A stretch of 37,459 bases of DNA, taken from contig JAOPWP010000186.1 of NCBI GenBank assembly GCA_025965615.1, positions 1 through 37,459 on the forward strand, in the 5' to 3' direction. The DNA is from Frankiales bacterium. Its GTDB lineage: Bacteria > Actinomycetota > Actinomycetes > Mycobacteriales > SCTD01. Positions within the stretch are counted from its first letter, which is position 1. Each line of letters opens with the position of its first letter. The notes below the pieces were generated by a model, which did no database searches, was not told where the DNA came from, and saw nothing but the letters and a program-made list of their open reading frames with translations. Made by a program: the position numbers and the translations under genes. Positions 3 through 14,009 of this stretch are shown here, one piece after another.

Positions 3-458
3 AAGGTCAACCGGGTCGAGATCCGCGGCATCGAGCCGCCTCCGACCATCCGCGACGCGATGGAGCAGGCGATGCGGGCCGACCGTGGCAAGCGGGCGGC
101 GATCCTCACCGCCGAGGGCCAGCAGCAGTCCGTGGTCCTGTCGGCCCAGGGCCAGAAGCAGTCCATCGTGCTCAACGCCGAGGCGGACCGGACGGCGACG
201 ATCCTGCGTGCCGAGGCCGACAAGGAGTCGGCCCTGCTGCGGGCCGAGGGCGAGGCCAAGGCGATCGCGATGGTCGTCGAGGCGATCCGGGCGGCCGGGG
301 TCGACGAGACCGTGCTCGCCTACCAGCGCCAGATGCTGCTCCCGCGCATCGCCGAGGGCGGCGCCAACAAGGTGTGGTTCGTGCCCACCGACATCGCCGG
401 CGCCATCGGTGCGACCGCAGCGACCCTCGGACTGCGCCCCGAGGCGCCACCGCGCTGA
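3..458 (+). CDS. SPFH/band-7 family protein, C-terminal part (5' truncated by window edge)
   Basis: Open frame runs to the window edge (KVNRVEIRGIEPPPTIRDAMEQAMRADRGKRAAILTAEG...), with the Ala/Glu-rich coiled region typical of stomatin/prohibitin-like proteins. Confidence 0.85.
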   Translation, partial: KVNRVEIRGIEPPPTIRDAMEQAMRADRGKRAAILTAEGQQQSVVLSAQGQKQSIVLNAEADRTATILRAEADKESALLRAEGEAKAIAMVVEAIRAAGVDETVLAYQRQMLLPRIAEGGANKVWFVPTDIAGAIGATAATLGLRPEAPPR

Positions 459-494: not shown

Positions 495-2075
495 ATGCAG
501 ACCTTCCTGCCCTACCCCGACCTCCGGGCCAGCTGCGTGGTGCTCGACGACAAGCGTCTGGGCAAGCAGCGGGTCGAGACCTTCCAGATCCTGCGCGCCC
601 TCACCTGGCCCCGCTACGCCTGGAAGAACCACCCGGCTGTGCGCATGTGGCGCGGCTTCGTGCCGGGACTGGTCGCGTACGGCCTCGAGAACTGCCGCGA
701 GTGGACCCGCCGGGGCTACGCCGACACGGTGGCGCCGCAGCTGCTCGCGTGGTCCGGAGGAGTGGAGCCCGTCGCACCGGTGCTGCCCCCGTGGTTCGGG
801 CTCGAGCCGCTGCACCTGTCACACCGGTCGGCGCTGCTGCGCAAGGACCCGCAGTGGTACGGACCCCTGTTCGCGTCCCTGGGCGAGCCGGACCTGCCGG
901 ACGACCTGCCCTACCTGTGGCCCCCCGACCACTTCCCACGTTGGCCGGTGCGGGCGGGCCTGCGGGCACAGCCCGTCCCGGTCGCGGCCGAGCTGCTCGG
1001 CCTGTCCACGCTGCGCCCGTGGCAGGAGCGGGCCGCTGCCTCGGTCGCTGACGGGCGGGACACCCTGCTCGTCGCGCGCCCCGGTGCCGGAGGCTCGACC
1101 GCAGGCTTGCTGGCCGGCCTCGCGACGGACGGCCGGACCCTGTGGGTGAGCCCTGCCCCGGGAGTGCGGTCGCCCCCGGTGCCTGCAGCGCTGCTGGACC
1201 CCGACAGGGTGCGTCCGGCCGCGCGCGCTGCCGCTGAGCGGGTGCCCGGGGGCGACGCGACGGGACCGGCCGTGGCACCGATCGCCCGGCCGCCGGCGCC
1301 GGAGGACCTGCTGGCCATGCAGGCGGAGTCGGCACCGGCCGAGTTCGTGTTCCGGTCGCCGGACGACCTGGCGGCAGAGGACCTGCGGCCCGTCGGACCG
1401 GCGCAGCCCGGATGGGGACTGGTCGTCGTGGACCGGGCCGGTGAGCTTCCCGAAGAGCAGGAGGCCGCCGTACGGTCCGCGCGGGGGTCCGGCGGTCCGC
1501 CGCTCCTGGTCGTGGTCGACCGGGCCGACGAGGAACGGCGGGCGGCCCTCGTGCGGCGCTACGGCCTCGTCGACCCCTCCTGGGTCGGCGGCGGGTGGGA
1601 CCCCGGCAGCGAGCTCGGGGCCCGGGTCGTCTCGACCCAGCAGGCGGCGCGGTCGTCGGTCGAGGAGCTGGTCCGGTCCGGCGGCCCGGCGGTCGTCGTC
1701 GCGCCCTCGCGGGAGCGGGCGGAGCGCCTGGTCGCCGGGCTGGGCCGGGCAGGGCTGAGGGCTGCCCTGTGGGCTCCTCCGCCCCTGCGGGCGAACCGAG
1801 CCACCGCGGCCCTCGCCGCCTGGAGGGCACGCCGGCTCGACGCCCTCGTCGTCGGCGCCGGGGCGCTGCCGCCACTCGGCCGTGCCCGCGTGCCCCTGCT
1901 GGTGGCGGTCGACCCCGACTCGCTCGACGGCTGGCGGGACCTCGTGGAGCGGGTCTCCGCCGACCGCTCCGTCGTCGTCGCCGGGCCCGGTGCCAGCGGT
2001 CAGGTGCGGCAGTGGGCGGCGGGGAACCGGCTCCGCGAGACGTTGCTGGACGGCTTCGGCGAACCGGCCTCGTAG
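495..2075 (+). CDS. MSMEG_6728-like (pyrimidine dimer DNA glycosylase-like) N-terminal domain fused to a degenerate RecQ-like SF2 helicase region
   Basis: N-term MQTFLPYPDLRASCVVLDDKRLGKQRVETFQILRALTW...NHPAVRMWRGF. C-term LRPWQERAAASVADGRDTLLVARPGAGGST...LVVVDRAG...VVVAPSRERAERLVAGLGRAGLRAALW follows RecQ order with catalytic motifs lost. Confidence 0.75.
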   Translation: MQTFLPYPDLRASCVVLDDKRLGKQRVETFQILRALTWPRYAWKNHPAVRMWRGFVPGLVAYGLENCREWTRRGYADTVAPQLLAWSGGVEPVAPVLPPWFGLEPLHLSHRSALLRKDPQWYGPLFASLGEPDLPDDLPYLWPPDHFPRWPVRAGLRAQPVPVAAELLGLSTLRPWQERAAASVADGRDTLLVARPGAGGSTAGLLAGLATDGRTLWVSPAPGVRSPPVPAALLDPDRVRPAARAAAERVPGGDATGPAVAPIARPPAPEDLLAMQAESAPAEFVFRSPDDLAAEDLRPVGPAQPGWGLVVVDRAGELPEEQEAAVRSARGSGGPPLLVVVDRADEERRAALVRRYGLVDPSWVGGGWDPGSELGARVVSTQQAARSSVEELVRSGGPAVVVAPSRERAERLVAGLGRAGLRAALWAPPPLRANRATAALAAWRARRLDALVVGAGALPPLGRARVPLLVAVDPDSLDGWRDLVERVSADRSVVVAGPGASGQVRQWAAGNRLRETLLDGFGEPAS

Positions 2076-11545: not shown

Positions 11546-12989
11546 CGTCGGAGGGGGCGGAGACGAAGACGAGGGGCGCGACCTCTGACCTGGCGGCCGG
11601 GGCATCAGCCACGGCTGGCGGCGCCGGCTGCTCGACCGGCTGGTCGGGGGCGACCGGCGCCTCAGCGGTGCGTGCGACGGGCGGGGGGTCGGGCAGCACC
11701 GCGGCCAGGGGAGCGGCGACCGCTCGGACCTGCCACTCGCGGGCGCCGTGACGTCGGAGCGCGTCGGCGACGGACTCAGGCGTGGGGTCGCCGCCGTCCG
11801 GAGCGGGAGGGGTCCACGCCAGCCGTCGGAGAGCCTCGGGCTGGACGAGGTTCTCCTGGGGGAGGCGCAGCTCGGCCGCGAGGTCGATGACCACGGCGCG
11901 GACCCGGGCCAGGCGCTTGGCCGCGACCGGGTCGCGCTCGGCCCAGCGGTTCGCCGCCGGGGGACCGTCGCCCTGCGGGAGGGGCAGCGGGAGGCGGTCC
12001 TCGGGCAGTGCGCTGGCGGCCTGGAGCGCCCCGAACCACACGTCCACGTGCCGACGGGTCGAGCGTCCGCCGAAGACGGGAAGCTCCAGCAGAGCCCCGG
12101 CGCTGGTCGGCGCCGCGGTGACGGCAGCGACGATCGCGGCGTCGGGCAGGATGCGACCGGGTGCGATGTCGCGCCGCCGGGCCATGGCGTCGCGGGCCTC
12201 CCACATGGCCTGCACCGCAGCGAGCTGTCGGCGCGAGCGCAGCCGGTGCATCCCGGACGTGCGGCGCCACGGGTCGACGCGAGGCGCGGGCGGCAGCGCC
12301 CGGCGGACGGCCTCGAACTCCTCGTGGGCCAGCTCGAGCTTGCCCTGGTCGCGCAGCTCCGCCTCGAGGGCGTCTCGCAGCTCGAGCAGCACCTCCACGT
12401 CCAGCGCCGCGTAGACCAGCCAGGAGTCCGGCAGCGGCCGGGTGGACCAGTCGGCGGCCGAGTGGCCCTTCTCCAACCGGAGCCCGAGCACCTTCTCGAC
12501 CATCGCGCCGAGGCCGACCCGTTCGAACCCGGCCAGCCGCCCGGCCAACTCGGTGTCGAAGACCCGGCTGGGCACGAACCCGACCTCGGCGAGGCAGGCG
12601 AGGTCCTGGCTGGCGGCGTGCAGGACCCACTCGTCGTCCTGGAGCGCGGTGGACAGTTCGGACAGGTCGGGGCAGCCGATCGGGTCGATCAGGGCCGATC
12701 CTGCGCCGCGCCGGCGGAGCTGGACCAGGTAGGCCCGCTGGGAGTAGCGGTAGCCCGAGGCCCGCTCGGCGTCGACGGCGACCGGTCCCGTCCCGGCGGC
12801 GAAGCGCTCGACCAGCTCGCGCAGGCCGGCAGCCGTGGTCGTGACGGGCGGGACACCCTCGCGCGGGGCCAGCAGGAGCTCCACGCCGTCGGAAGCGGCA
12901 GCTCCGCCGGCAGGGGCAGCGCTGTCACCGGAGGCAGCATCGGCGCCGGCCACGCCCCCCTGGTCGTGACCCGGCAGGGTCGTCGTCAC
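11538..12989 (-). CDS. Ribonuclease D / HRDC domain protein
   Basis: VAVDAERASGYRYSQRAYLVQLRR, HAASQDLACL, FDTELAGRLAG, DWSTRPLPDSWLVYAALDVEVLLELRDAL. Confidence 0.93.
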   Translation of the reverse strand: MTTTLPGHDQGGVAGADAASGDSAAPAGGAAASDGVELLLAPREGVPPVTTTAAGLRELVERFAAGTGPVAVDAERASGYRYSQRAYLVQLRRRGAGSALIDPIGCPDLSELSTALQDDEWVLHAASQDLACLAEVGFVPSRVFDTELAGRLAGFERVGLGAMVEKVLGLRLEKGHSAADWSTRPLPDSWLVYAALDVEVLLELRDALEAELRDQGKLELAHEEFEAVRRALPPAPRVDPWRRTSGMHRLRSRRQLAAVQAMWEARDAMARRRDIAPGRILPDAAIVAAVTAAPTSAGALLELPVFGGRSTRRHVDVWFGALQAASALPEDRLPLPLPQGDGPPAANRWAERDPVAAKRLARVRAVVIDLAAELRLPQENLVQPEALRRLAWTPPAPDGGDPTPESVADALRRHGAREWQVRAVAAPLAAVLPDPPPVARTAEAPVAPDQPVEQPAPPAVADAPAARSEVAPLVFVSAPSDGG

Positions 12990-13250
12990 GCGGTCGAGGT
13001 TACGCGTCGTTGCGGACACGTGCGCCTGAAGCGGGACATCCCGCGTGTCGGCTCCGCACCGGTAGCCGGCGCTCACTGTGCGTCGCGACGAGAAGGCCGA
13101 GGACGCTCAGTGGCCGTCGTGCCGCGCTGCCCTCGCCCCGGGCCGGGCCCCACGAGCTCGACCCCGGCGGTGTCGGAGCCGCTCCTGCGTCGCGTCGATC
13201 TCGCTCTGCTGTCCGGCCCGGCCACGCCCGGCCCCGTGACGTCAGAGCTG

Positions 13251-14009
13251 TCAGCCTCGCGCGCTCCTGGCAGCGACGGGCGGATGTGGTTGCTGGCCCC
13301 CGCAGGCCGTCGCCCCGGGCGTGTCGTGCTCGGTCGCGTCGTGGGCGGTGGCTCCGCAGCAGCCCTTCCCGCGCCACGCGTCTCGACCCTCCTTGAGCGC
13401 GACCGCGGCGATGACGAGCCCGGCGACGGGGTCCGCCCAGCCCCAGCCGAGGCTCGCGTTGAGCAGGAGTCCGCCGAGCAGGACCGCGCTCAGGTAGGTG
13501 CAGAGCAGCGTCTGGCTGCTGTCGGCGACGACGGCGTTGGAGTGCAGGGCCCGCCCGGTCCGGCGCTGCGCCCAGGACAGCCAGGGCATGACGACCAGGC
13601 TCGTGGCGGCCAGGGCGATGCCGACGGGCGAGGCGTCGGGGTCAGCTCCGGTGACCAGGGAGCGCACGCTGTCCTGGGCCACGTACGCGGCGAGCGCGAA
13701 GAACGACAGGGCGATGAGGCGGAGGGCCTGCTCCTCGCGGGACTCGGGCATCCGGTGCCGGAACTGCCACAGGATCACCAGGCCGCTGCTGACCTCCACG
13801 ACGGAGTCCAGGCCGAAGCCGATCAGCGCTGCCGATCCGGCTGCCGCCCCGGCGGCGATGGCGATCACGGCCTCGGCGCCGTTGTAGGTGACGCTGGCGG
13901 CGGCCAGCAGCTGGGCCCGCCGTCCGAGCCGGGCCCGGTCGGCGGGGGGAAGGGCGGCGGAGAGGCTGTCGTGGCTGTGCCGCGCGGTGTCGTGGCTGCT
14001 GGTGCTCAT
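13251..14009 (-). CDS. Cation diffusion facilitator-type metal transporter with Cys/His-rich tail
   Basis: Multiple TM helices, GFGLDSVVEVSSG, ADSSQTLLCTYLSAVLLGGLLLN, WADPVAGLVIA, tail GKGCCGATAHDATEHDTPGATACGG; directly follows an ArsR gene. Confidence 0.9.
   Translation of the reverse strand: MSTSSHDTARHSHDSLSAALPPADRARLGRRAQLLAAASVTYNGAEAVIAIAAGAAAGSAALIGFGLDSVVEVSSGLVILWQFRHRMPESREEQALRLIALSFFALAAYVAQDSVRSLVTGADPDASPVGIALAATSLVVMPWLSWAQRRTGRALHSNAVVADSSQTLLCTYLSAVLLGGLLLNASLGWGWADPVAGLVIAAVALKEGRDAWRGKGCCGATAHDATEHDTPGATACGGQQPHPPVAARSARG

Follow-up and report, generated by a model that had tools for sequence, protein, structure and literature searches.

A catalytically dead RecQ core, conserved under purifying selection, is fused to an MSMEG_6728-family domain in Actinomycetota

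What can a helicase fold that has lost its motor do for the domain to which it is attached? This question is raised by a gene near the start of the window, by which we mean the whole 37,459-nucleotide stretch of Frankiales bacterium DNA (contig JAOPWP010000186.1) analysed here. A preliminary description, made from the letters alone, had claimed a continuous 526-aa open reading frame at 495-2075 joining an MSMEG_6728-like region to a dead RecQ-type helicase. The frame is real, running on the forward strand (as do all features of the gene given below) from the ATG at 495 to the TAG at 2073-2075, and encodes a fusion of an MSMEG_6728/Pyr_excise domain with a catalytically dead RecQ core. An SPFH/band-7-like gene, named by reading its sequence, lies upstream at window positions 3-458. 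Such a gene precedes the fusion in the window's genus, including locus L223 (7596-8528) and locus L222 (6655-8041), where it lies 4 bp from the fusion and is itself preceded by an NfeD-like ORF (both named by reading). Upstream genes differ in other genera, and the neighbourhood comparison gave no conserved operon partner of the fusion across genera.

The N-terminal region was found as aa 1-143 (495..923), above the cut-offs of both family models that describe it. It matched the NCBIfam model MSMEG_6728_fam (NF038085) over profile positions 1-148 of 149 with 181 bits and E=1e-53 (curated cut-off, 100 bits), and the Pfam model Pyr_excise (PF03013) with 74.9 bits and E=7e-21 (cut-off, 23 bits), a model that T4 DenV also matches from its residue 1 with 53.3 bits. 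T4 endonuclease V (DenV) works through the amine of its processed N-terminal Thr together with a Glu, namely Glu23, which is Glu22 in the processed protein (PMC3285167). Glu28 of the N-domain (576..578), invariant in 24/24 sequences, can be matched to DenV Glu23 only in a hand-made ungapped alignment, the direct hhalign comparison of N-domain and DenV giving nothing significant; in contrast to the Thr2 nucleophile of DenV, position 2 of the N-domain is Gln in all 24. Methionine aminopeptidase is not expected to remove Met1 before Gln2, so the invariant Gln2 implies that Met1 is probably retained. Of the "glycosylase-like" label given earlier, the shared Pyr_excise model thus stands, whereas the T4-type nucleophile is replaced; the domain is at most a putative glycosylase. 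Its AF2 model is all-helical (pLDDT 90), and searches of the PDB with the sequence and with the model gave no match to a solved structure or fold. The namesake, MSMEG_6728 of M. smegmatis, is listed merely as a SigF-dependent conserved hypothetical protein (PMC4694148).

The C-terminal region (aa ~163-526) is a RecQ core by ancestry and fold. With the window sequence alone, RecQ models were the only helicase models matched in NCBIfam, weakly (E=0.004-0.08), and the best PDB chain in phmmer was E. coli RecQ, again weakly (0.012). With the whole protein as query, tblastn aligned aa ~163-492 with the intact RecQs of many relatives (E from 1e-10 to 1e-4) and with that of the same genome (32% identity across aa 163-492, E=1e-10). 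A profile built from ten C-domains reached RecQ in the PDB at E=8e-19, RecQ-family chains outranking other SF2 helicases, and when nine full-length C-domains were compared with 18 intact actinobacterial RecQs in hhalign, E was 1e-34. Three column-shuffled versions gave E values of 0.3-0.65, which rules out chance similarity arising from the Ala/Gly/Arg-rich composition. The AF2 model of the region (pLDDT 81, pTM 0.70) had RecQ-family proteins as all 50 of its 50 best PDB matches in Foldseek (top E=1.5e-13, prob 1.00). TM-scores were 0.35-0.62 and rmsd was high, and how the two halves are positioned relative to each other is therefore unreliable. One homologue (G010) matched the NCBIfam RecQ model at 8e-13 and, with 28.0 bits, also exceeded the cut-off of 25 bits for Pfam RecQ_Zn_bind. 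The RecQ motif order recognised by eye in the preliminary description was therefore borne out by profile, alignment and structural comparison alike. A PADLOC match to "DpdF", considered as a sign of a Dpd system, was read as a match to the RecQ region and not as a trace of such a system; we take the DpdF model to be one of a RecQ-type helicase.

Fold and block order follow those of RecQ-family SF2 helicases such as E. coli RecQ and RECQL5, beginning with motif 0 and continuing up to where the zinc domain starts. Behind the linker FPRWPVR (aa 147-153, 933..953), which is conserved among RecQ-fused forms, lies the RecA1-like half (aa ~163-345, 981..1529), delimited by profile, AF2, Foldseek and alignment, followed by the RecA2-like half (aa ~380-500, 1632..1994) and by a vestige of the RecQ zinc-binding domain, NRLRETLLDGFGEPAS (2025..2072). 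Unlike these helicases, the fusion has neither winged-helix nor HRDC domain, and the window copy has lost the zinc cysteines of the C4 domain, which three homologues (G010, G013 and BP180) still carry as CGRCDxC.

The catalytic residues are gone. In alignment with intact RecQs, Walker A PTGSGKS has become ARPGAGGS (remnant RPGAGGS, aa 195-201, 1077..1097), with Gly200 (1092-1094) at the Lys position, and VVDEAH of motif II has become VVDRAG (remnant LVVVDRAG, aa 309-316, 1419..1442), which keeps the Asp and loses the catalytic Glu. The QEVGRAGRDG region is replaced by WRDLVERVSADRS, the motif VI position DSLDGWRDLVERVSADRS (aa 475-492, 1917..1970) has lost its arginine fingers, motifs III, V and VI can no longer be recognised, and the aromatic-rich loop is deleted; all of these elements are present in RecQ-family helicases. 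Motif 0 persists as RPWQ (1014..1025), its Gln177 invariant in 10/10 fused C-domains aligned. The substitutions reported earlier at Walker A, the DExH box and motif VI were thus correctly read, and they are not peculiar to this copy: the P-loop Lys and the DExH box occur in no fused copy examined, long or short, the sole GKS among them (L068) being located in the linker, outside the P-loop. A search of 1826 genomes for a fusion with an intact helicase, and hence for an intact GKS/DExH intermediate, yielded none. Because these residues are lost, ATP-driven unwinding by the fusion protein is almost certainly gone.

The dead region is under purifying selection. Full-length fusions occur in three GTDB families, f1 (that of the window, Frankiales/Frankiaceae MAGs), f100, of which one member (G888) is a single-contig genome, and f105. 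Pairwise maximum-likelihood omega (GY94, F3x4) for the C region of the unsaturated pair G888/G907 was 0.065 (dN 0.056, dS 0.86; LRT 181 against omega=1), with 0.051 for RecA1, 0.070 for RecA2 and 0.034 for the N-domain. Within the window's genus, omega in the pair G003/G008 was 0.037 for the intact RecQ, 0.055 for the N-domain and 0.084 for the C region; these values are rough as dS exceeds 1, and so are those of other pairs, in which dS is saturated. The short forms described below gave 0.08-0.11 in their two least saturated pairs. Conservation across families together with these values rules out a decayed single copy, and the C-terminal conservation on which the preliminary description depended was found.

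Related proteins form a series of reductions. In those of ~300-345 aa nothing but the RecA1 half is left, and these short forms matched the full form in hhalign at 8e-33 and RecQ at 2e-7. The proteins of G002, of the window's genus, and of G011, of the window's family, both end where RecA1 meets RecA2; any RecA2 remnant is at best weak and 32 residues long in G002, and G011 has none. In one Pseudonocardiaceae genus the proteins have shrunk to ~230-255 aa, with essentially the segment SxARxPTxADLAAMRAEAxDPxxVRFFRRGQ left (3e-12 vs short, 3e-6 vs full, nil vs RecQ). The stages thus comprise loss of the zinc cysteines, of RecA2 and of most of RecA1, and only a RecA1 helix-strand segment with the motif ARxPxxxDxxAMxxE survives every one of them; in the window copy it is ARPPAPEDLLAMQAESAPAEFVF (aa 264-286, 1284..1352). 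We infer that the series runs from long to short, with the full form as the ancestor, since its colinearity with RecQ extends as far as the zinc domain.

In the N-domain tree (149 columns) the RecQ-fused forms make up one side of a branch whose SH-aLRT of 90 falls below the mark of 95, a topology compatible with a single origin. A complete core (RecA1-RecA2-zinc domain) may accordingly have been captured once in Actinomycetota by a nucleic-acid enzyme of the MSMEG_6728 family. Many carriers also possess a separate intact RecQ, and therefore the fusion does not replace RecQ. A RecQ gene lies nearby in 3/192 loci, not all distinct, too few for an operon origin. In G888 (L220; 9339 and 11594-13288) the dead-RecQ fusion is followed after ~2.3 kb by an intact RecQ gene on the opposite strand, and in two Streptomyces (L101, L127) an intact RecQ gene is found ~2 kb downstream of the standalone MSMEG_6728 gene.

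As to function, we lean towards reading the dead core as a scaffold or targeting arm without catalysis, in the course of reductive evolution, which would position the N-domain on a nucleic-acid substrate or a partner without hydrolysing ATP. The essential contact would most likely lie in the RecA1 helix-strand segment, because that segment survives every reduction, and RecA2 and the zinc tail would be accessory to it. Of the "non-hydrolysing DNA-binding or targeting module" first proposed, the conserved, catalytically dead RecQ holds, while the binding or targeting part is what we infer. A simple carry-over of RecQ DNA binding is argued against by the loss of the usual RecQ DNA contacts; with the aromatic-rich loop and motifs V and VI erased, RecQ's ordinary path for ssDNA has probably not stayed intact, and the net charge of the C region, which spreads from -16 to +8 across homologues, suggests no uniform basic DNA-binding surface. 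The dispensability of RecA2, lost in several lineages, counts against a targeting arm.

The main rival is that the dead core is no DNA-binding arm but a platform for protein-protein docking or for regulation, which might receive a repair partner or clamp the N-domain of its own protein. It accords with the lost DNA contacts and the droppable RecA2 just mentioned, and the one element kept throughout is of a size typical for a docking surface; however, the gene neighbourhood, which differs between genera, suggests no partner, and we regard this reading as possible, though on the unlikely side. Binding of nucleotide or phosphate without hydrolysis, as a sensor or clamp, would suit the invariant Gln177 and a glycine loop that is among the most conserved stretches even without its Lys, but no copy examined has the Walker A Lys and the loop is lost altogether from short forms, which makes such binding improbable. 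The reduction trend could be a drift of the C region towards dispensability; yet a decaying passenger without function, for which the repeated truncation and a C-region dN ~2.5-6 times that of the N-domain would speak, is very hard to reconcile with an omega of 0.05-0.11 (LRT 52-181 against neutrality) in the unsaturated pairs, a frame intact over ~370 codons in three families, truncations that coincide with a domain boundary and a confidently folded AF2 model.

For the scaffold or targeting arm there is a precedent in AddB and RecC, whose inactivated SF1 helicase domains read Chi DNA (PMC4824097), that is, dead helicases kept as DNA readers. Both there and here a helicase fold without a motor is retained inside a DNA-processing protein (PMC4824097). 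Theirs, however, is SF1 (UvrD-like) and belongs to large Chi-recognising resection complexes, whereas that of the fusion is an SF2 RecQ in a single polypeptide with putative recognition. By analogy, a base-excision-type enzyme might use its converted RecQ to read lesions or structures without hydrolysis, which would make this module the SF2 equivalent of these readers, with natural intermediates from the whole core to one 25-residue element; we regard this extension as doubtful. A text search of the open-access literature found no description of a RecQ pseudo-enzyme. The family reported here provides such a pseudo-enzyme, conserved and with its intermediates preserved in nature (the full core with and without zinc cysteines, RecA1 only, one segment), which allow direct testing of which part of a dead helicase stays useful.

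The fusion also offers a way into the MSMEG_6728 family, an uncharacterised family widespread in actinobacteria, some of whose members carry other C-terminal extensions. In family f20 (L178, L180, L181, L182, L183), a basic and probably helical tail (RRRSAAAKKAWQTRR) takes the place of a folded C-domain in some standalone MSMEG_6728 proteins. Other members (L022, at aa 165-281, and L019, L020, L024, L025, L027, L028, L095, L096, L114 and L151) share an unrelated C-terminal domain of ~150 aa with the pattern GVVGLGTxSGIDVDATG..GDLVGLP..PHRRPARW..LQDPRxLF. This domain had no Pfam match and resembled the PADLOC defence-candidate domain PDC-S02 (E=7.5e-9), which would fit an N-domain that pairs with targeting modules, and it may be a PUA/EVE-like reader domain.
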